The position numbers were made by a program, and so were the translations under genes. The notes under the pieces are model-generated. The model worked only from the letters and a program-made list of their open reading frames with translations. It was not told the DNA's origin and did not search any database. From assembly GCF_900143525.1 (NCBI RefSeq), contig NZ_FREZ01000007.1:1-64000 (forward strand): a stretch of 64,000 nucleotides of DNA, in the 5' to 3' direction. Origin of the DNA: Ruegeria sp. Alg231-54. GTDB taxonomy: Bacteria > Pseudomonadota > Alphaproteobacteria > Rhodobacterales > Rhodobacteraceae. Of this stretch, positions 6,880 through 17,390 are shown one piece after another (within the stretch, counting starts at the first letter, position 1; the number at the start of each line of letters is the position of its first letter).

Positions 6880-7263
6880 TCAGGTGTGGCCCAGTACTTT
6901 GCGGGCAACGCGGAAACACTCCAGCGCTTGCGGGATGCCACAGTAGATGCCAATCACGTGGATGATGGCTCGGATTTCCTCGGGCGAGACGCCGTTGTTG
7001 ATCGCGCCTTTGCAGTGAATTTCCCATTCATGCATCTTCCCAAGCGCGCCGATCATGGACAGGTTCATCATCGATCGCGTTTTGGCATCGATCACGTCAT
7101 CGCCCCAGCCAAACCCCCAGCACCACGCCGTCATCGCTTCTTGAAACGGGCGGGTAAAGTCATCGGCCGCCGCTAGGTTCTTTTCTACATATTCCGCACC
7201 AAGCGTGTTTTTGCGCTGCTCCAGGCCTTTCAGGAACAGGTCTTCGTCGAAAATATCAGCCAT
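6880..7263 (-). CDS. Carboxymuconolactone decarboxylase (CMD) family protein
   Basis: A 127-residue helical protein. The C-terminal half (HEWEIHCKGAINNGVSPEE, then an isoleucine-rich helix with GIPQALECFRVA) matches the CMD/PcaC fold. It lacks the CXXC of AhpD peroxidases, so a decarboxylase, lactonase or isomerase role is more likely than peroxide reduction. It is the last gene of the leftward RpiR-Rieske-CMD set, 120 bp after the oxygenase, and is probably part of the same catabolic pathway. The substrate is not known; protocatechuate-type function is not supported because no other pca genes are present. Confidence 0.82.
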   Translation of the reverse strand: MADIFDEDLFLKGLEQRKNTLGAEYVEKNLAAADDFTRPFQEAMTAWCWGFGWGDDVIDAKTRSMMNLSMIGALGKMHEWEIHCKGAINNGVSPEEIRAIIHVIGIYCGIPQALECFRVARKVLGHT

Positions 7264-7383: not shown

Positions 7384-8472
7384 TTATTCCACCGCCTCGC
7401 GCATCCATTGTTGCAACCGGGCAATTGAGTGTTCCGACATCACCCCACAACTGGGGTCCAGCACGAGCGGACCGGGGCGATACCCGCGGGATTTCAGGCC
7501 GCGATGGACGCTTTCGACCAGATGGATGTCTTCCTCGACTGTGGTCTCCCGGTCCTGCACGGCCAGTTGTCGGATCACCGCGCTTTCGGATCCACCCTCG
7601 GTGTACCAGCCGCGCCAGACGGTGCAGTGGTCGGCATCAATGGCGCGCCAGTGATAGGTGTTCAGCACATTGCCCGGGTAACACTGGAACGAGAACATCG
7701 GCCACAGGAACCATGACTGGTAGTCGCTCGCATGCGGCACCGACAGGTCGACCGGGTAGGTCATCTTGTCGAGACTTTGGCATTCGGTCGTATGACGCAG
7801 CACGTAACCGCCGCCTGCATCGGGTTGGATGTCATAGGTCTCGGGCTTGACCACACCCTCGGCAAAGGTCGGGTGGTTGGTCGGGCAATGATAGCACTCC
7901 GAGTAATTCTCGATACTGACCTTCCAGTTGCACTTTTCCGGGATTTCGACCCATTCCAGCGGTTCCAGATCGTCGATATGAGGGACAAAGGCGCGGATTT
8001 CTTCGCGCACGCCGGGATACCAGTCGTCCATCGGGGCTGCATCGTCCTCGAGATTGACGAAGATGAATCCGTTGAACACCTCGGTCCGCACCGAAGTCAG
8101 GCAGATGGCGCTGCGGTCAAAACCGGGGACGGATTTGATATTGGGTCCGGCGCGTAATTGGCCTGACAGCTCATAGGTCCAGGCGTGATAGGGGCAGACC
8201 ACGACGCGGGTGTTACCAGCACCGGTGACCATTTCATGCGCGCGGTGCTGGCACACGTTATAGAACGTGCGAATTTCGCCGTCTCGGCCCCGAATGCAGA
8301 ACAGGTTTTGCCCGGCGATTTCAAAAGCAAAGTAATCGCCCGATTCCCGGACCTGCGCCACGTGCCCGGCAAACTGCCACGTGCGGGCCAAAAGCCCCTG
8401 CATCTCCTGCTCGAAAATGGCGGTGTCGGTATAATACCGCGCGTCGAGCGAATGCGTCAGAGGGGCGTTCAC
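7384..8472 (-). CDS. Rieske [2Fe-2S] non-heme iron oxygenase, large subunit (betaine/carnitine demethylase type)
   Basis: A 362-residue ring-hydroxylating-dioxygenase alpha-type protein. Rieske ligands are C74-X-H76 (NVCQHR) and C93-X2-H96 (CPYHAW). The mononuclear iron site is H195 and H200 within NYSECYHCPTNHP, typical of the subgroup that N-demethylates quaternary amines (glycine betaine, carnitine, stachydrine). The gene overlaps the RpiR regulator by 4 bp. No ferredoxin or reductase gene lies nearby, so electrons must come from elsewhere. By family it would convert a trimethylammonium or dimethylammonium substrate to its demethylated form plus formaldehyde. The exact substrate cannot be read from sequence alone. 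Confidence 0.88.
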   Translation of the reverse strand: MNAPLTHSLDARYYTDTAIFEQEMQGLLARTWQFAGHVAQVRESGDYFAFEIAGQNLFCIRGRDGEIRTFYNVCQHRAHEMVTGAGNTRVVVCPYHAWTYELSGQLRAGPNIKSVPGFDRSAICLTSVRTEVFNGFIFVNLEDDAAPMDDWYPGVREEIRAFVPHIDDLEPLEWVEIPEKCNWKVSIENYSECYHCPTNHPTFAEGVVKPETYDIQPDAGGGYVLRHTTECQSLDKMTYPVDLSVPHASDYQSWFLWPMFSFQCYPGNVLNTYHWRAIDADHCTVWRGWYTEGGSESAVIRQLAVQDRETTVEEDIHLVESVHRGLKSRGYRPGPLVLDPSCGVMSEHSIARLQQWMREAVE

Positions 8473-9356: not shown

Positions 9357-9381
9357 GATTGACGATGGTACATTTGTGGAA
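9334..9381. promoter_or_regulatory. Tandem operator-like repeats between the RpiR gene and the flavoprotein gene
   Basis: Two copies of GATGRTACATTTGTG start at 9334 and 9364. They are identical at 14 of 15 bases and exactly 30 bp (about three helical turns) apart. The first copy sits in a longer near-palindrome, ATGA-N10-TCAT with an ACA-TT-TGT core. It overlaps the beginning of the RpiR gene; the second precedes the divergent flavoprotein gene. They are probable RpiR sites, though this is inference. Confidence 0.6.
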
Positions 9382-9424
9382 TTAGCCTGTCGAGCAGAAA
9401 CGCGACTCGGGAAGAGGAAAAATC

Positions 9425-11878
9425 ATGTCCGAGAAGAATCTGCCGTCCCATGCCCGCGTGGTGATTGTCGGTGGCGGCGTCATGGGGGTCGGTCTGGCCT
9501 ATCATCTGGCGCGTGAAGGTTGGGGCATTGATACCGTCCTGCTTGAAAAGGCAGAGCTGACCAGCGGCAGCACCTGGCACGCGGCAGGGCAGATCACGCA
9601 TTCGACATCCAGTTTTGGGCTGGGCAAATGCGTCGATTACAATATCGGCCTCTACTCAGGCGCGCTGGAAGCCGAAACCGGTCAACCGGTGACATGGCAT
9701 GGCTGCGGCTCGTTTCGGTTGGCCTATACCGAGGATGAGATGGACTGGCTGCGGCATACGCTGTCGGTGGGCCGGTCGCTGGGGTTCAACATTGAACTGG
9801 TCGGACCTGAAAAGGTGGCGGAACTGCACCCGTTCTACAATCTCGACGGCGTATTGGGTGCGCTATACACGCCAGATGATGGGCATGTGGACCCGACCAA
9901 CGTCACCATGGCGATGGCAACCGGGGCGCGGCAAAAGGGTGTACGCATCTTCCGCAACTGCCGTGCGACCAACATCACCCAGGCCGAAAACGGCGAGTGG
10001 GTGGTCGAGACCGAGCAGGGCACCATCACATGCGAGCATGTGGTGAACGCTGGCGGCACCTATGCCCGTCAGATGGGCGAATGGTCGGGGCTGCAACTGC
10101 CCATGACTTCGATGACACACCACTATTTTGTGACCGAGCCGGTGCCCGAGTTCCAGAAGCTGGACAAGGAGCTGCCGGTGATTCGCGATGACCGCAAGGT
10201 CTCGGGCTATATCCGGATGGAGCAGCAGCGCGGCCTGATCGGGATTTACGAGAAAGAGAACCCGAACTCGGTTTGGCACAACCATTGCCCGTGGGAATAC
10301 GAGAACTGGTTGTTCGATGCGGATTACGACCGGGTGATGCCGTGGCTTGAAGAAAGCCTGAACCGCATGCCGATTTTTGCGGATCTAGGAATTCAGCGCG
10401 ACGTGCACGGTGCGATCTCGCACCCGCCCGATGGCAACCCGCTGATCGGGCCTGCGCCGGGCGTTTGGAATTACTGGTGCTGCTGCGGGACCCAAATTGG
10501 CATTGGCTGGGGGCCGGGTCTGACCCGCGAGTTGGCACGCTGGATGGTGCATGGCGCGGCCGATATCTCGATGCGTGAGTTCGATCCACGCAGGTTCGGC
10601 AGCTATGCGACCAAGGATTGGCAGGTGATCAAAGCTGAGGAAGATTACTGCCTGCGCCACGAGATCCCGTTCCCGCATTTCAACCGTTTGGAAGGGCGTC
10701 CGATCAAGCCGTCGCCTCTCTATGATCTGTTGAATTCCAAGGGTGCGGTACATGAAGAGGTTTATGGCTTTGAGCGCCCCCGCTGGTTCGCGCGGGATGA
10801 GGTCGAGCAGCGCGATCACTACTCCTTCCGCCGGACCCCTGCGGATCACATGGTCGCGGCTGAGGTCAAAGCGGTGCGCGAACGCGTCGGCATCATGGAC
10901 GTGACCGCCTTCACCAAGGTCGAAGTCTCGGGCCCTGATGCCTACGCGCTGTTGGACCGGCTGATCGCTAACCGGATGCCGCAAAAGGTTGGCTCGATCA
11001 CTCTGACGCATATGTTGAACCGCCGTGGCCGGATCGAGTTGGAGACCACGATTGTCCGAATGGCTGAGGATCGGTTCTATCTGGTCTGCGCTGCCTTCTT
11101 TGAGCAGCGTCTGCTGGATCATCTGACACAACAGCGCGCGGACGAGGATGTTCAGATAACCGCGCTGTCCACCGATTGGTCCGCCCTGTCGCTGAACGGT
11201 CCGAGGGCGCGTGACGTGCTGGGACAGTGTGCAGATGCCGATCTGACCAATGCTGGCTTTCGCTGGTTGTCGGCACAAGAAATCACCGTCGCGGGTCACA
11301 AAGTATGGGCCTTCCGCATGTCCTATGCCGGTGAGTTAGGGTGGGAGCTGCACATGCCCAATGCCGCCTGCCTCGATGTCTACAATGCGCTTTGGGCAGC
11401 GGGCGAGCCGCACGGCATCACCGACTATGGCAGCTTCGCCATGAACGTGATGCGGATGGAAAAAGGCTTCAAAGGCGCGGGCGAGCTGACCAACGAGGTC
11501 ACTTTGGCCGAGGCTGACGTGCTGCGTTTTGCCCGCTCCGACAAGGAGTATCTGGGTAAAGACAAAACCCTGAACACTGACTTGCCGTGGGTCTGCGCGT
11601 ATCTGCAGATCGAGCCGGATGGTGAAATTGACGGCCACGGTGGAGAAGCAGTGATGCTGGATGGACGTGTCGTGGGTTCAACAGCCTCGGTCGTCTATGG
11701 GCACACGGTCCGCAAGATCCTGGCCTTTGCGTACATCAAGCCCGAGGCTACCGACCACGGCACCGAATTGGAGGTCGTCATCCACGGCCAACCCCGCGCG
11801 GCCCGTGTTCTGGGCGAACCTGCTTATGATCCGCAAAGCCTGCTGCCCCGCACCGACGCTATTCTGGAGACTGCATAA
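9425..11878 (+). CDS. FAD-dependent dimethylglycine/sarcosine dehydrogenase-like protein with C-terminal GcvT domain
   Basis: An 817-residue two-part enzyme. Residues 10-400 form a DAO-type FAD domain (VVIVGGGVMGVGLAYHL) with the covalent-flavin histidine H52 in GSTWHAAGQ. Residues from about 430 to 800 form a folate-binding GcvT-like aminomethyltransferase domain. DMGDH-family proteins oxidise N-methyl groups and pass the C1 unit to THF. It starts the rightward operon and shares one base (TAATG) with the next gene. It could perform the demethylation steps that follow the Rieske oxygenase and deliver C1 units to the glyA/gcv neighbourhood. The substrate may be dimethylglycine or a larger N-methyl amino acid. 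Confidence 0.9.
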   Translation: MSEKNLPSHARVVIVGGGVMGVGLAYHLAREGWGIDTVLLEKAELTSGSTWHAAGQITHSTSSFGLGKCVDYNIGLYSGALEAETGQPVTWHGCGSFRLAYTEDEMDWLRHTLSVGRSLGFNIELVGPEKVAELHPFYNLDGVLGALYTPDDGHVDPTNVTMAMATGARQKGVRIFRNCRATNITQAENGEWVVETEQGTITCEHVVNAGGTYARQMGEWSGLQLPMTSMTHHYFVTEPVPEFQKLDKELPVIRDDRKVSGYIRMEQQRGLIGIYEKENPNSVWHNHCPWEYENWLFDADYDRVMPWLEESLNRMPIFADLGIQRDVHGAISHPPDGNPLIGPAPGVWNYWCCCGTQIGIGWGPGLTRELARWMVHGAADISMREFDPRRFGSYATKDWQVIKAEEDYCLRHEIPFPHFNRLEGRPIKPSPLYDLLNSKGAVHEEVYGFERPRWFARDEVEQRDHYSFRRTPADHMVAAEVKAVRERVGIMDVTAFTKVEVSGPDAYALLDRLIANRMPQKVGSITLTHMLNRRGRIELETTIVRMAEDRFYLVCAAFFEQRLLDHLTQQRADEDVQITALSTDWSALSLNGPRARDVLGQCADADLTNAGFRWLSAQEITVAGHKVWAFRMSYAGELGWELHMPNAACLDVYNALWAAGEPHGITDYGSFAMNVMRMEKGFKGAGELTNEVTLAEADVLRFARSDKEYLGKDKTLNTDLPWVCAYLQIEPDGEIDGHGGEAVMLDGRVVGSTASVVYGHTVRKILAFAYIKPEATDHGTELEVVIHGQPRAARVLGEPAYDPQSLLPRTDAILETA

Positions 11879-12960
11879 TGAGCTTGCCTGACAAAATGAA
11901 GGCCATGGTCACGATGGGCCATGGCGGCTTGGAACAAATGGTGCTGCACAAAGACTGGCCGCGCCCGGAACCCGCGGCCGGCGAGGTGTTGATCAAAGTC
12001 GCTGCCTGCGGGCTAAACAACACGGACGTCAATACGCGGTCTGGCTGGTACTCAAAAGCCGTGACCGATGCGACGACGGGCGGCGCGTTCGAGGAAGTCA
12101 GTGACGAGGATCCGACATGGGGCGGCGCGCCCATCACTTTTCCCCGAATCCAAGGGGCTGATATCTGCGGGGAAATCGTCGCCGTGGGTGGCGGTGTCGA
12201 TCCCGGGCTGATCGGTCAACGCGTCATCACCGATGGCTGGCTGCGCGACCCGTCTGATCCGGGCAATAAGGACAAAACGGGTTATTTCGGCTCGGAACGG
12301 GACGGTGGTTTTGCTGAATACGCCACGACTCTGGCGGTTAACGCGGTGCCGATCCGGTCCGACCTGTCGGATGCCGAACTGGCCACGTTCTCGTGCTCCT
12401 ATTCGACCGCCGAAGGCATGCTGACCCGCGCAAATGTAACTGACACTGACACGGTTCTGGTGCCCGGAGCCTCGGGCGGGGTCGGCGGTGCCTTGGTGCA
12501 ACTGGCCAAACGCCGGGGTGCACGGGTGATCGCGATGGCGTCGGATGCAAAACACGCAGACGTTGCCGAACTGGGTGCCGACAAAATCTTGTCTCGTGCC
12601 CCGGAAAATCTGCGCGCGGCGCTTGGCGATGAAAAGGTCACCGTTGTGGCCGATGTGGTTGGTGGTCCCTACTGGCCAAACCTGATCGACGTTCTGGAAC
12701 GTGGGGGGCGCTATACCTGCTCGGGCGCGATTGCCGGGCCCATGGTCGAATTCGATCTGCGCACGTTCTACCTGCGTGACCTGACCTTCACCGGCTCTAC
12801 CGTGATTGACCCGCAGGTGATGCGTAACATCGTTCAGTATATCGAGGCCGGTGAGATCAAGCCCGCCCTGGCCGCGACCTATCCCCTGGAAGAGTTGCGC
12901 GAGGCGCAGACCGCATTCATTGCCAAGCAGCACACCGGGAACATCGTGGTGATCCCATGA
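11878..12960 (+). CDS. MDR-superfamily NAD(P)H-dependent oxidoreductase (quinone oxidoreductase-like)
   Basis: A 360-residue medium-chain dehydrogenase/reductase. The GroES-like catalytic domain covers about residues 30-150 ([15 protein letters not shown] and a [15 protein letters not shown] turn). The Rossmann domain starts near residue 195 ([23 protein letters not shown]). The paired cysteines of a structural zinc lobe are not evident, pointing to a zinc-free quinone/enoyl reductase. It is translationally coupled on both sides (TAATG upstream, ATGA into dddQ). In a DMSP context one thinks of acryloyl-CoA reductase AcuI, but the N-terminus differs and it is about 30 residues longer. A reductase acting on the unsaturated product of DddQ remains possible. 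Confidence 0.85.
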
Positions 12961-13535
12961 CGATGGGCGACGTTCTCGAAGCTGCCCGACAGCTGCATCA
13001 ATCACGTCCTGAGCTTTCAGAATTCGGAGCCTGGCCTGATGACCTGACGCCGGCCGATCTGGAGCCATACCAAATCCCTGCCGTTGAACTGATTCAGCGG
13101 ACCGGTTTCCGGACCGAGGATGCAACGCGATCCCTTTCAGACGCGATCAGGGCAACCGCGCATCTGGCGCTGTGGAAACACACCTATACTGAGGAAGAGG
13201 TCGGTGCCGATTTTCTTAACCGCTATGGCTATTATGAGCTGTTCGGCCCAACCGGGCATTTCCACTCGACTCAAATGCGCGGCTACGTCGCTTACTGGGG
13301 GGCGGGTCTGGATTATGATTGGCACAGCCATCAGGCCGAAGAACTCTATCTGATCGTAGGCGGCGGGGCGATGTTCCGCGTCGAAGAAGACCAGACTTAC
13401 GTCGGCCCCAATCAGACACGGCATCACCGAAGCTGGCAGAGCCACGCAATGACAACAACCGACGAGCCAATTCTGGCTTTCGTTCTTTGGCGAGGACAAG
13501 GATTGAACGACTTGCCACAAATGGATGCGGCATGA
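12957..13535 (+). CDS. dddQ: DMSP lyase DddQ (cupin)
   Basis: A 192-residue cupin that by family cleaves dimethylsulfoniopropionate to dimethyl sulfide and acrylate by abstracting the alpha proton next to the carboxylate. The catalytic signature is intact. [15 protein letters not shown] supplies H125, E129 and Y131; H163 lies in WQSHAM; Y120 and W178 are also present. These positions coincide with those I recall from the characterised Ruegeria lacuscaerulensis enzyme. The start overlaps the MDR gene (ATGA), and the stop overlaps a 31-codon ORF in the same way. Reported DddQ activity on DMSP is modest, and the neighbours point to betaine-like substrates, so the physiological substrate may differ. 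Confidence 0.9.
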
Positions 13536-13627
13536 AAATCATTCCCGTACATGCCTGTTCATCCCAATGTGGGCGGGCATTTGTTGCGAAATGGCCCAGT
13601 ATGCCCATTGAGGAGATCCGTCTATGA
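13532..13627 (+). CDS. Putative 31-residue microprotein between dddQ and the cupin gene
   Basis: ORF of 31 codons whose ATG overlaps the dddQ stop (ATGA at 13532-13535) and whose TGA overlaps the start of the downstream cupin (ATGA at 13624-13627). The peptide contains the CSSQC motif (C9, C13) and a short mixed hydrophobic segment, and resembles no family I know. Its 3' end encodes the GAGGAG ribosome-binding site of the cupin gene. It may be a real small protein or merely a coupling leader that keeps ribosomes moving through the operon. Expression is unproven. Confidence 0.4.
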
Positions 13628-13908
13628 GACCGCAAGCCGAAGCCACTCAGTTGATTGACGACGCCCGCGTGCGTGTGACGCGATTTGACTTTGCACCGGG
13701 GGCCGAAACGGGATGGCATCGCCACGCAATGGACTACGTCATCACCGCCGTAACCGATTGCCATATGCGGCTGGAACTGCCCGATGGTTCGGCCAATGAA
13801 GTGACGGTTGCTGCGGGAGTAACTTATCGCCGCGACGAGGGTGTCGAACACAACGTGATCAATGCCGGGGACGCGCCGATGACCTTTGTTGAAGTGGAAC
13901 TGAAATGA
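13624..13908 (+). CDS. Small single-domain cupin protein
   Basis: A 94-residue cupin_2 protein. The metal-binding block reads GAETGWHRHAMDYV, with two histidines, and a later histidine lies in EGVEHNV. The usual glutamate position appears occupied by aspartate or tyrosine, so metal binding may differ from the standard 3-His/1-Glu set. It has a good GAGGAG site 8 bases upstream and ends in an ATGA overlap with the first enolase gene. Such small cupins can be isomerases, lyases or binding proteins. Here it is likely an accessory enzyme of the same pathway; no specific function can be assigned. Confidence 0.85.
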   Translation: MRPQAEATQLIDDARVRVTRFDFAPGAETGWHRHAMDYVITAVTDCHMRLELPDGSANEVTVAAGVTYRRDEGVEHNVINAGDAPMTFVEVELK

Positions 13909-15011
13909 AAATCACTCGTCTTTCAGTCTACCATGTCGACCTACCGCTTGAGCATCCGTATTGGCTGTCTGGCGGGCGGTTGAAGTTTGAAACGCTCGAC
14001 GCAACGATTGTAAAGATCGAAACCGATTCAGGTCTGACCGGTTGGGGCGAGGGTACCCCGTGGGGCCACACATATGTTCCGGCTCACGGTCCGGGTATTC
14101 GCGCCGGAATTCAGACGATGGCGCCATTCGTTTTGGGACTTGATCCGCGTCGGGTGCTGAATGTCGAACGAGCGATGGATATCGCACTGCCCGGCCACCT
14201 CTATGCCAAAAGCCCCATTGATATGGCTTGCTGGGATATTGCGGGTCAGGCCGCCGGTCTGCCAATTGCCGATCTGATGGGCGGCGGGTCTCGCACGCCG
14301 CGCCCGATTGCCTCATCGGTCGGTGCGAAGACCGTCGAAGAAACGCGCGAAGTGATGGAACGCTATCGCCGCCGCGGCTACGTTGCGCATTCGGTCAAAA
14401 TCGGTGGGGATGTAGAACGCGACATTGCCCGCGTCCGTGACGTGGAAAGCATCCGACGCCCCGGCGAGATCGTCCTTTATGACGTCAACCGTGGCTGGAC
14501 CCGGCAGCAGGCCCTGCGGGTGATGAGCGCCTGTGAGGACCTGAACGTGATGTTTGAACAGCCCTGCGAGTCGCTGGACGATATCGCCGTGATCGCGGGC
14601 CGTCACGCCACACCCGTGTCAGTGGATGAAAGCCTTGTGACACTGCAAGACGCCGCCCGCATAGCCCGCGAAGGGCTGGCTGAGGTGTTCGGAATAAAGC
14701 TGAACCGTGTCGGTGGCCTGACCAAGGCGGCACGGATGCGGGACATCGCGTTGGCGCATGGAATCGACATGTTCGTGATGGCCACCGGCGGTTCGGTTCT
14801 GGCCGATACCGAGGCGCTGCATCTGGCGGCCACCATCCCGGACGACAACTGTCATGCCGTTTGGGCTTGTCAGGACATGATCACCGTCGATGTCGCTGGC
14901 GGGCGAGGCCCACGAAACATCGATGGCCATCTGCATTTACCAGAGGCGCCGGGACTTGGTGTGCACCCTGACGAAGATGCGTTGGGCGATCCCGTCGGGG
15001 TTTATCATTGA
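13905..15011 (+). CDS. Mandelate racemase/muconate lactonizing enzyme (enolase superfamily), copy 1
   Basis: A 368-residue enolase-superfamily enzyme with the N-terminal capping domain and C-terminal beta-barrel. Metal ligands are readable as D193 (LYDVNRGW), E218 (MFEQPCE) and D241 (VSVDES). Acid/base lysines are K165 (HSVKIGG) and K265 (FGIKLNRVGG). The first lysine of the usual KxK is serine (S163). The layout recalls hydroxyproline-betaine epimerase (HpbD) and cis-3-hydroxyproline dehydratase, which act on quaternary or cyclic amino acids. The gene has ATGA coupling to the cupin and a TTGA overlap with a second, different paralogue. Substrate is inferred only. Confidence 0.88.
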   Translation: MKITRLSVYHVDLPLEHPYWLSGGRLKFETLDATIVKIETDSGLTGWGEGTPWGHTYVPAHGPGIRAGIQTMAPFVLGLDPRRVLNVERAMDIALPGHLYAKSPIDMACWDIAGQAAGLPIADLMGGGSRTPRPIASSVGAKTVEETREVMERYRRRGYVAHSVKIGGDVERDIARVRDVESIRRPGEIVLYDVNRGWTRQQALRVMSACEDLNVMFEQPCESLDDIAVIAGRHATPVSVDESLVTLQDAARIAREGLAEVFGIKLNRVGGLTKAARMRDIALAHGIDMFVMATGGSVLADTEALHLAATIPDDNCHAVWACQDMITVDVAGGRGPRNIDGHLHLPEAPGLGVHPDEDALGDPVGVYH

Positions 15012-16111
15012 GGGTCATCAGGATAACGCTCTGGGCCGTCGATCTGACGAGTCGTGAGATCTATCACATGGCTGAGGGTAAGACCTGCGCGAACGTGACC
15101 TCTCATATCCTGTACCTTGAGACAGATACAGGCTTGAGGGGTTGGGGCGAGGTCTGCCCGATCCCGCATTACCTGCCAGCCTTTGCAGGCGGCGTGCCGG
15201 GCGCAGTGACAGAGATGGGCCGCGAGATTCTGGGCATGTCCCCCTTCGGGGTAGATGCGCCGATGCGAAAGCTGGACGGGTTCCTGCAGGGGCATCTCTA
15301 TGCCAAGTCCCTCGTCGACATCGCGCTTTGGGATTTGTTCGGGCAGGCAACGGGCCAGCCGGTCTATGCGCTGCTGGGCGGGCGGACACGAAAGGACATG
15401 CCGCTGTACCACTCGATCACCTGCGTCGCGCCGGATGACATGGCGCGGATCGCCAAGACGGCTTACCAGACCGGCATTCGCCAGTTTCAGGTCAAGCTGG
15501 GGGTCGAAGGCGACTGGCAGGCCGACGCCGAGCGTTTGACCAAAGTGCGTGAGGCCGTGGGACCGGGGCCTCTGGTTTATGGCGACTGGAACTGCGGTGC
15601 GTCACGCCTGCACGCTACGCGAACGGGCAGGGCGGTGGCCCGCCAGGATGTGATGCTGGAACAGCCCTGCAAAACACTTGAGGACTGTGCGGCGGTTCGA
15701 CAGGCCACTGGCTTACCTATGAAGATAGACGAGAACGCCCATGATCTGGCGTCGCTGCGGTGTGCACATGAGCTGGGCTGCATGGATGCCGTCGCTTTGA
15801 AACTGTCTAAGTTTGGCGGTTTGTCGGCCATGCGCCGGGCGCGTGATCTGACCGTGCATTTCGGGGCTGAGACTTGTGCCGAATGCACCAGGGGCTCGGA
15901 TATTGTCACCGCTGCATCGCTGCATTTTGCGGCCTCGAGCCCGCACGGGTCACTGATGAACACATGTGACCTGTCATCCTATGTGTCACCGCGCCTTTGC
16001 CCCGACGCACCAAACCGTGAAAACGGCCGGATTGCGCCACCCGAAGGACCGGGGTTAGGTGTTGTGCCAGACCCAGAGGTTCTTGGTCCGCCAATTTTGG
16101 AGATCGTTTGA
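15008..16111 (+). CDS. Mandelate racemase/muconate lactonizing enzyme (enolase superfamily), copy 2
   Basis: A 367-residue paralogue of the preceding enzyme but clearly diverged, not a recent duplicate. Metal ligands are D193 (YGDWNCG), E218 (MLEQPCK) and D241 (KIDENA). Lysines are K163 (FQVKLG) and K265 (ALKLSKFGG). The first lysine of KxK is glutamine (Q161). The start is a TTG overlapping the upstream stop (TTGA), because no ATG or GTG is well placed. Two enolases in tandem suggest sequential steps, for example epimerisation then dehydration of one carbon skeleton, or activity on two stereoisomers. The gene ends one base before the aminotransferase ATG. Confidence 0.86.
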   Translation: MRVIRITLWAVDLTSREIYHMAEGKTCANVTSHILYLETDTGLRGWGEVCPIPHYLPAFAGGVPGAVTEMGREILGMSPFGVDAPMRKLDGFLQGHLYAKSLVDIALWDLFGQATGQPVYALLGGRTRKDMPLYHSITCVAPDDMARIAKTAYQTGIRQFQVKLGVEGDWQADAERLTKVREAVGPGPLVYGDWNCGASRLHATRTGRAVARQDVMLEQPCKTLEDCAAVRQATGLPMKIDENAHDLASLRCAHELGCMDAVALKLSKFGGLSAMRRARDLTVHFGAETCAECTRGSDIVTAASLHFAASSPHGSLMNTCDLSSYVSPRLCPDAPNRENGRIAPPEGPGLGVVPDPEVLGPPILEIV

Positions 16112-16112
16112 G

Positions 16113-17390
16113 ATGCTGAAAATCAACACCCAATCCGAATGGATCGCCCGCGCGAATGAGGTGCTGCCCGCCGGTGGGTTTGGTAATTTCGATCCCGGTA
16201 TCATCATCGCGCGCGGTGAGGGCAGCCATGTCTGGGATGAGGATGGCAACGAATATGTGGACTACCTGATCGGTTCGGGCCCGATGCTGCTGGGCCATGG
16301 TCACCCCGAGGTCATGGAAGCCGTGCTGGAACAGCTGCCCAAGGGCATGACTTTCTTTGCCAACAACGCCCGGGGCATCGAACTTGCCGAGGCCATCGTT
16401 GACGCGGTGCCGTGTTGCGAGCAGGTCCGCTTTGTGGCCGCGGGGGGAGAGGCTGATATGTACGCCATTCGTCTGGCCCGTGCCTATACTGGCCGTAGCA
16501 AGATTCTGAAATTCGAAGGCGGCTATCACGGGATGAGCGCCGAGGCACAGATGAGCCTGGCCCCCAGCCGCCACGTCAACTTCCCCCAGGCGGTCCCGGA
16601 CAGCGCGGGCATTCCGGACAGCGTGGCCGAGCAGATGCTGATCGCGCCCTTCAATGATCTGGAAGCCGTTGCCAACCTGCTGGCCGAGCATGATGACGTT
16701 GCCGCGATCATGGTTGAGCCGTTGCAACGAATTGTCCCTCCGGCACCCGGATACCTTCAGGGATTGCGCGATCTCTGCGACAAATACAATGTCCTGTTGA
16801 TTTTCGATGAAATCGTCACCGGATTCCGTTTGGCCTATGGCGGCGCGCAAGAGAAATATGGCGTGACGCCCGATATCTGCACCTTGGGCAAAATCATCGG
16901 CGGCGGCTTCCCTTTGGCCGCGCTGGGCGCAAGCGCCGAGATTATGCAGCATTTCGACAAAGCGAAAGTTGGCGAGGAAGGCTGGCTGATGCAGTTGGGC
17001 ACACTGTCGGGTAACCCCGTCGCTTCGGCTGCCGGTTTGAAGACAATGGAGGTTTTGCGGCGCGACGGCATGTATGACCATCTGCGTGAAATCGGCGCCG
17101 AGCTTCAGCAGATGCAGATGGATGCGCTGACCGGGGCTGGCATCCCGCATCAGATATGCGGGGACGAAACGCTGTTCGACATCTATTTCACCGATACGGA
17201 CTGTCTTGACTACCGCAGCGCCAAACATGACGACCCCCGACGTAACGCTATCTACAACGATTCGCTGCGCGCACATGGGATTTTCAAAGCCCCCGGCAAA
17301 CTCTATCCGTCTCTGGCTGTGACCCAAGCAGATCTGGATCAGACGCGGATGGCCGTTGAGAAAGCGGTTCAGGCGATCAGAGCAGCCTGA
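16113..17390 (+). CDS. Class III PLP aminotransferase (glutamate-1-semialdehyde aminomutase-like)
   Basis: A 425-residue fold-type I PLP enzyme. The cofactor aspartate is in IFDEIVTGFR and the catalytic lysine is in CTLGKIIGGGFPLAA. Similarity is to GSAM/HemL, but the catabolic operon position argues that this is not the tetrapyrrole enzyme. A transaminase or aminomutase acting on the demethylated amine is more likely. I chose ATG at 16113, two bases after the upstream stop; the longer ORF would run 54 bp into the enolase gene. It is the last gene of the operon, followed by a perfect 12-bp hairpin. Confidence 0.9.
   Translation: MLKINTQSEWIARANEVLPAGGFGNFDPGIIIARGEGSHVWDEDGNEYVDYLIGSGPMLLGHGHPEVMEAVLEQLPKGMTFFANNARGIELAEAIVDAVPCCEQVRFVAAGGEADMYAIRLARAYTGRSKILKFEGGYHGMSAEAQMSLAPSRHVNFPQAVPDSAGIPDSVAEQMLIAPFNDLEAVANLLAEHDDVAAIMVEPLQRIVPPAPGYLQGLRDLCDKYNVLLIFDEIVTGFRLAYGGAQEKYGVTPDICTLGKIIGGGFPLAALGASAEIMQHFDKAKVGEEGWLMQLGTLSGNPVASAAGLKTMEVLRRDGMYDHLREIGAELQQMQMDALTGAGIPHQICGDETLFDIYFTDTDCLDYRSAKHDDPRRNAIYNDSLRAHGIFKAPGKLYPSLAVTQADLDQTRMAVEKAVQAIRAA

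Follow-up and report, generated by a model that had tools for sequence, protein, structure and literature searches.

The closest described relative of the enzyme considered here is the DddQ of Ruegeria lacuscaerulensis ITI-1157 (4la2; also 4la3 and 5jso), for which a Km of 22 mM is reported (PMC5395565; the articles cited by PMC number are represented here by the accessible portions of their text). The same article, a review, states that DMSP raises dddQ expression and that dddQ mutants of R. pomeroyi make 97% less DMS, so the role in DMSP breakdown is real in that organism. DddQ is more efficient with DMSOP than with DMSP (PMC10686828), and in R. pomeroyi dddQ and dddP were up 1–4 fold compared with 40-fold for dddW (PMC4437653). 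In 2012 the dddQ gene of R. pomeroyi and the dddQ1 and dddQ2 genes of Roseovarius nubinhibens were described next to a gene for an MDR028-family reductase, and the R. nubinhibens MDR028 gene did not relieve the sensitivity of an E. coli mutant to acrylate (PMC3338564). Beyond that linkage we found no description of the surrounding operon, in a search that missed most subscription papers, including Todd et al. 2011 and Lei et al. 2018; the latter is cited for promiscuous cupin enzymes in the available text of PMC6302742.

We analysed a window of 64,000 nucleotides from Ruegeria sp. Alg231-54, which contains one dddQ gene. Its product has the same length, numbering, active-site residues and operon neighbours as the R. 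lacuscaerulensis enzyme, with which it shares 68% identity. The R. lacuscaerulensis locus (L054) has neither a small cupin gene nor Eno3 between DddQ and Eno1, whereas the window has the cupin and an Eno3 relic. R. nubinhibens carries two adjacent copies where the window has one. R. pomeroyi DSS-3 DddQ (SPO1596) is, in the accessible text of PMC3338564, a cupin DMSP lyase linked, like that of the window, to an MDR028 gene (SPO1593). A further likeness is to hydroxyproline-betaine epimerase and cis-3-hydroxy-L-proline dehydratase neighbourhoods. Their enolases are related to 4mgg, 2pmq, 4h2h and 4e8g, which we take to carry these function names, whereas the window operon ends in an aminotransferase, has no recognised proline enzyme and has enolases that score under the NF043002 cut-off.

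The DddQ gene and its operon

A phmmer comparison with PDB chains places residues 1–192 of the window DddQ on residues 1–192 of 4la2 without a gap (E 3e-86), followed by 4b29 (9.4e-53), presumably one of R. nubinhibens DddQ1 and DddQ2, and 5cu1 (8.4e-34, 120 bits), which we take to be R. pomeroyi DSS-3 SPO1596. Chain 4la2 is assigned to R. lacuscaerulensis because over 192 aa it is identical to the DddQ of L054, the ITI-1157 locus. The window protein scores 68.9 bits with the Pfam model DMSP_lyase (PF16867, cut-off 27), which places it in that family, and it is the sole protein of the 4.9-Mb genome above the cut-off. Of the named relatives found, R. atlantica CECT 4292 is the nearest, with a DddQ that is 94% identical. 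Judged by its sequence, the window gene is a genuine DddQ, the orthologue of the solved R. lacuscaerulensis enzyme.

Seven residues of the window protein, Y120, H123, H125, E129, Y131, H163 and W178, are in register with 4la2; we assume an active-site role for W178. The original prediction had listed six of these, omitting H123, and had expected the enzyme to be competent; the gap-free alignment bears out its numbering and reveals no active-site substitution, and the enzyme does look competent. Tyr120, His123, His125, Glu129, Tyr131 and His163 are the DddQ residues named in the accessible part of PMC4437653. All seven are kept in 121 of 124 aligned rows (121 rows from loci and three PDB chains), a set that covers operon-borne and other DddQ copies and three deep lineages. 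The exceptions are a second DddQ at L148 (position 7427, minus strand), which has H125R, and the copies at L013 and L020, in which W178 is changed to H or Q. The seven residues are therefore a family rule, any DddQ would be expected to have its site intact, and the use of such a site as a diagnostic of substrate is ruled out.

The genes around DddQ and the sites discussed below are as follows, in the order of the window.

6880..7263, minus strand: CMD, a carboxymuconolactone-decarboxylase-family protein
7384..8472, minus strand: Rieske oxygenase alpha subunit; closest solved relative carnitine monooxygenase 6y8j, 212 bits
8469..9356, minus strand: RpiR-family regulator with HTH_6 and SIS domains, divergent from the operon
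9358..9394, plus strand: conserved promoter/operator-like stretch, ATTGACGATGGTACANNTGTNNNNTTAGCCTGTCGAG
9425..11878, plus strand: FADox, an FAD oxidoreductase whose C-terminal half is folate-binding and of GcvT type; resembles dimethylglycine dehydrogenase (PDB 4pab, 518 bits) and is a putative N-demethylase
11878..12960, plus strand: MDR-family zinc-type reductase/dehydrogenase; best PDB match 4j6f, 'putative alcohol dehydrogenase', 308 bits
12957..13535, plus strand: DddQ, lineage B, 192 aa, ATG start, seven catalytic/metal residues intact
13532..13627, plus strand: probable Eno3 relic of 31 codons; overlaps the stop of DddQ and the start of the cupin gene that follows
13624..13908, plus strand: small Cupin_2 protein, 94 aa
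13905..15011, plus strand: Eno1, enolase superfamily; PDB 3eez, 748 bits ('putative' name), then 2qdd
15008..16111, plus strand: Eno2, enolase superfamily, TTG start; nearest PDB chain 4mgg
16113..17390, plus strand: AmT, a class III aminotransferase of the glutamate-1-semialdehyde aminomutase kind

The genes from FADox through MDR, DddQ, the relic, the cupin, Eno1 and Eno2 to AmT are joined by overlaps of 1–4 bases and a single gap of one base, the 3' end of MDR overlapping the DddQ start by 4 bases (ATGA), and RpiR, Rieske and CMD run divergently from them. By this layout the operon is translationally coupled and lies next to a divergent RpiR regulator. The 31-codon frame is probably what remains of a third enolase, Eno3, whose gene is whole at this position in L032, L034 and L036; other short remnants occur in L031, L033, L049 and L057, and L055 has a gap there with no clear remnant. 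In two genomes, at G290:C8:157811 and G218:C10:17107, a FADox gene that is otherwise 79–80% identical has one in-frame stop.

Curated models give the neighbours a family rather than a named function. The Rieske protein scores 162 bits with the GbcA model NF058607 (cut-off 670), below what identifies a glycine betaine monooxygenase, and MDR scores 50.3 bits with the AcuI model NF051456 (cut-off 440), below the level of an AcuI acryloyl-CoA reductase. K165, K265, D193, E218 and D241 are invariant across Eno1, Eno2 and two Eno3 proteins, as in the enolase superfamily, where we take them to be the lysines (K165, K265) and the acidic metal ligands (D193, E218, D241). The best-scoring model for Eno1, Eno2 and an Eno3 is cis-3-hydroxy-L-proline dehydratase (NF043002, cut-off 500), which gives 322.8, 299.1 and 396 bits, respectively, and thus no assignment. 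Among the matches listed, the Rieske, enolase and aminotransferase proteins fall under every curated family cut-off. The original prediction held that the neighbours point to another substrate class than DMSP, and the Rieske, dimethylglycine-dehydrogenase-like, enolase-superfamily and aminotransferase genes are indeed of that kind. Such genes would suit a pathway that first takes off N-methyl groups and then transaminates, which makes a quaternary-amine carboxylate the best guess.

Neither acuI nor dmdA lies beside the window DddQ, the arrangement by which a DMSP catabolic neighbourhood would be recognised. On contig C27 dmdA (698 bits, above cut-off) adjoins an acuI-like gene, which at 415 bits falls just short of its cut-off of 440; DddQ is on C25. 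A DMSP locus thus exists apart from DddQ, and its presence does not exclude DMSP cleavage by DddQ. Because these two genes are elsewhere and the R. nubinhibens MDR failed on acrylate, the operon looks unlike an acrylate pathway.

The gap between RpiR and FADox contains the conserved stretch. With up to 3 mismatches allowed, its form ATTGACGATGGTACA...TTAGCCTGTCGAG matches the 4.9-Mb genome at one place, and the reversed control at none. The word ATTGACGA is present in 65 of 83 RpiR-FADox gaps. An 18-base core of the stretch is matched exactly at 41 of the 55 named operon loci described below, the other 14 lacking an exact copy, and at 0 of the 25 other named loci; the exact core also occurs at 11 of 26 loci without DddQ (L111–L136) and at 7 of 14 with it (L137–L150). 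The stretch probably holds a promoter and an RpiR site.

Distribution and lineages of DddQ

We examined 80 named DddQ loci, the best 80 of 124 confirmed stretches and a set rich in Ruegeria. At least four of nine operon genes accompany DddQ in 55 of them and part of the operon in 4; the remaining 21 have none, a count that is less sure where contigs are short (e.g. L071, L075, L085, L101 and L109). L054 carries CMD, Rieske, RpiR, FADox, MDR, DddQ, Eno1, Eno2 and AmT, and since its DddQ is 4la2, the enzyme that supplies the active-site numbering lives in the same operon. The operon is the usual home of DddQ in Ruegeria and its relatives. The original prediction had treated the window copy as one that might reveal what DddQ evolved for; its reading of the context as a hint of a different native role stands, and the notion that this copy is special does not, the same operon being present in R. 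lacuscaerulensis and at 55 of the 80 loci.

DddQ was also sought, by the window protein alone (E 1e-10), in 296 genomes of the family. Places anchored on FADox were defined by a match of at least 60% identity, and DddQ was counted if it lay within 15 kb. Of 52 such places, 19 have DddQ and 33 do not; eight DddQ queries found none in the DNA of 24 of these 33, where some contigs end inside the operon. DddQ is therefore not a core step of the pathway, whose core runs without it. Among the matches listed, MDR is present at 17 of the 19 places with DddQ and 16 of the 33 without (Fisher 0.003), and Eno1 at 17 of 19 and 13 of 33 (0.0005). With a 60% identity floor the figures become 16/19 against 14/33 for MDR (0.004) and 14/19 against 13/33 for Eno1 (0.02), and all four Fisher values are guides only because related genomes are not independent. 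The co-occurrence list took in MDR matches from 51% identity and Eno1 matches from 41%; many MDR matches of 58% or less, and most Eno matches of 36–41%, were not part of it. Of these further MDR matches, none among those listed shared a contig with a FADox or DddQ place at a distance of 15 kb or less.

Eno1 directly follows MDR in L111, L112, L113 and L114, which have no DddQ, and in L131–L136 the only operon genes found on the FADox strand are FADox and Eno2, with AmT in five of the six. MDR-DddQ pairs stand apart from the other operon genes at L078 and L139; in genome G128 FADox, Eno2 and AmT are at L132 and CMD, MDR and DddQ at the separate L139. DddQ is an optional insert in the operon. 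Looked at from the reductase, DddQ lies within 15 kb of 21 of the 54 MDR places of at least 60% identity and is not within that distance of the other 33.

Several other arrangements were observed around these genes. At L151 (own genome, C23:102000-112000) two dimethylglycine-dehydrogenase-like genes, a 158-aa weak cupin-lyase match and an MDR paralogue of 45–47% identity repeat the grouping of oxidase, cupin and MDR. L156 (G001:C4:313000-323000) has an MDR of 75% identity beside aldehyde dehydrogenase, hydrolase and aminotransferase genes that, to guess from the appearance of the sequences, may be for phosphonate catabolism. L154 (G209:C21:16000-26000) is apparently a decayed operon in which CMD and MDR are open and short pieces of Rieske, FADox and AmT lie around them. 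Some genomes add to the operon c14 (L039:3584-4408 and relatives), a protein of 274 aa that matches no Pfam family at 1e-5, has a sulfotransferase-domain gene beside it in most cases and is nearest in the PDB to 4ix1, a hypothetical protein. A look for transporters at the operon ends, as a pointer to the substrate, showed that in the 40 loci L111–L150 no gene cluster (40% identity) beyond the CMD-to-AmT block occurs in more than two.

For the phylogeny, 143 DddQ sequences were reduced to 121 by dropping identical 100-residue cores, three PDB chains were added, rows longer than 230 aa were trimmed to their last 200 residues, and a maximum-likelihood tree was computed with SH-aLRT support. Lineage B (78 rows, support 96) contains the window DddQ and 4la2. 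Lineage A (18–21 rows, support 97) contains 5cu1, which the window protein matches at 120 bits only, and many copies directly after MDR. In lineage C (7 rows, support 99) four copies lie between Eno1 and Eno2, a fifth follows Eno1 and a sixth, at L145, is a tandem copy ahead of Eno3; a further small group contains 4b29. A locus has at most two copies of DddQ. Lineage A is found mostly after the reductase, B mostly between the reductase and the third enolase, and C mostly after the first enolase. Where A and B occur together, A precedes B in L096, L091 and L147 and follows it in L072 and L106, so the slots are preferences and not rules.

The majority residues of lineages B, A and C are Y, C and W at position 92, E, C and N at position 94, and W, M and W at position 114. 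Positions 92 and 94 alternate along a single stretch, and both may face the pocket. Twenty of the 21 named copies that have no operon genes nearby fall inside lineage B (Leisingera, Pelagibacter-like and others), with L101 outside. This position in the tree suggests, with moderate support, that such copies left the operon and did not found it. The DddQ copies of L093, L097, L098, L100, L105, L108 and L109 are in low-GC genomes of uncultured alphaproteobacteria, where they lie away from the operon and are flanked by the conserved genes c35 and c36, which, to go by the appearance of the sequences, may encode a hydrolase and a methyltransferase.

Selection was estimated from 15 hand-picked close pairs, of which 12–15 were usable for each operon gene, 11 for hemC and 6 for hemE. 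Summed dN over summed dS is 0.104 for DddQ compared with 0.031–0.060 for the other operon proteins; outside the operon it is 0.076 for hemC and 0.032 for hemE. DddQ is the protein least identical to that of the window in 43 of 53 operon loci, and none of 143 DddQ-family translations has an internal stop. A ratio of 0.10 implies that the gene is kept for function, yet evolves faster than its partners, and by this measure the window DddQ is under purifying selection.

The substrate of DddQ

We lean, if only slightly, towards a substrate other than DMSP, supplied by the operon, as the primary one of DddQ. The enzyme would then be an accessory carboxylate beta-lyase in the catabolism of betaine-type compounds, i.e. 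quaternary-amine carboxylates. From the chemistry of the family, the metal would bind the substrate, a tyrosine would abstract the alpha proton, and loss of the beta-carbon substituent would give an unsaturated acid. The gene context suggests that the main substrate would be a beta-substituted carboxylate from the operon, its stereochemistry set by the enolase-superfamily enzymes and its N-methyl groups stripped by the Rieske and dimethylglycine-dehydrogenase-like enzymes, and that the adjacent MDR reductase may receive the product. Cleavage of DMSP and DMSOP would be secondary or shared, both analogues also being cleaved. We counted in favour of an operon substrate the residence of the solved DddQ in the same operon, the 55 of 80 loci, the coupled genes, the promoter-like site unique in the genome, the association of DddQ with MDR and Eno1, the dN/dS of 0.10 and the operon-free copies inside lineage B. 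Against it we counted the DMS loss in R. pomeroyi, the 33 of 52 places without DddQ, the 21 of 80 loci without operon genes, the presence of MDR elsewhere (L156; DddQ near only 21 of 54), the below-cut-off scores of the neighbours and the 14 of 55 operon loci without the exact core. Two more specific schemes fared less well. The idea that MDR is an enoate reductase dedicated to the product of DddQ is weakened by the 33 of 54 MDR places where DddQ is not found within 15 kb. A beta-alanine-betaine route with malonate-semialdehyde dehydrogenase as its last step gained no support: by clustering, an aldehyde dehydrogenase joins the operon in 12 of the 40 loci L111–L150, and the one such protein compared fits other models best, those of betaine-aldehyde and aminobutyraldehyde dehydrogenase, below cut-off.

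DddQ may instead be chiefly a DMSP/DMSOP lyase, the operon being a multi-osmolyte regulon in which it forms a sulfur branch beside the nitrogen betaines. We regard this as a serious, if doubtful, possibility. The release of DMS and acrylate by DddQ enzymes, the DMS phenotype of the R. pomeroyi mutants and the response of expression to DMSP (accessible text of PMC5395565) speak for it, as does the preference for DMSOP over DMSP (PMC10686828, likewise in part); an added branch would be expected to be optional, as DddQ is, and 21 of the 80 loci have DddQ with no operon genes nearby. It is harder to reconcile with the millimolar Km given in PMC5395565, which accords with the description of DddQ in the original prediction as modest on DMSP, or with the small induction of dddQ beside that of dddW in the excerpt of PMC4437653. 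The acuI-like gene, moreover, sits beside dmdA on the other contig, and the promoter-like core is common to operons without DddQ.

An improbable reading has DddQ catalyse another alpha-proton reaction beside the enolases, for instance by dehydrating or epimerising a hydroxy- or amino-carboxylate, with DMSP cleavage incidental. The reaction of cis-3-hydroxy-L-proline dehydratase, the best-scoring model for Eno1, Eno2 and Eno3 (323, 299 and 396 bits), also starts with removal of an alpha proton, and the lineages differ at positions 92, 94 and 114 as if for different ligands. That DddQ is a decaying passenger from an earlier role was already disfavoured, and we give it very little credence. Its low identity at 43 of 53 loci, a dN/dS about twice that of its partners and the neighbouring Eno3, already a probable relic in the window, are what such a history would leave. 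A dN/dS of 0.10 nevertheless denotes strong purifying selection, and seven residues intact in 121 of 124 rows, with 0 of 143 translations interrupted, are not the marks of decay.

Meaning for the DddQ family

The cupin family to which DddQ belongs is said, in the title of Lei et al. 2018, to comprise DMSP lyases and enzymes of unknown function. That DddQ may have a native role outside DMSP is a reasonable idea, and for the family it is already in print. Added here are the operon as the normal home of DddQ in Ruegeria and its relatives, the status of DddQ as an optional and fast-evolving insert, its three lineages with preferred positions, and the promoter-like site upstream that is unique in the genome. 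A bolder and rather unlikely reading would make DddQ by origin not a DMSP lyase but a lyase of a nitrogen betaine or related beta-substituted carboxylate in an RpiR-linked operon. Each of its lineages would then act, together with the enolases, on its own isomers or homologues, and marine DMS from DddQ would be a side product of nitrogen-osmolyte metabolism.

If many DddQ copies belong to a nitrogen-betaine operon, a widespread enzyme has a true substrate yet to be discovered. Operons that have or lack DddQ in related genomes, together with the single-copy promoter-like site, offer a direct way to test it. Marine gene surveys count DddQ as a DMSP lyase (e.g. PMC8520302, in the portion available). 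Should many copies indeed belong to such an operon, these gene counts may overstate the potential for DMS.
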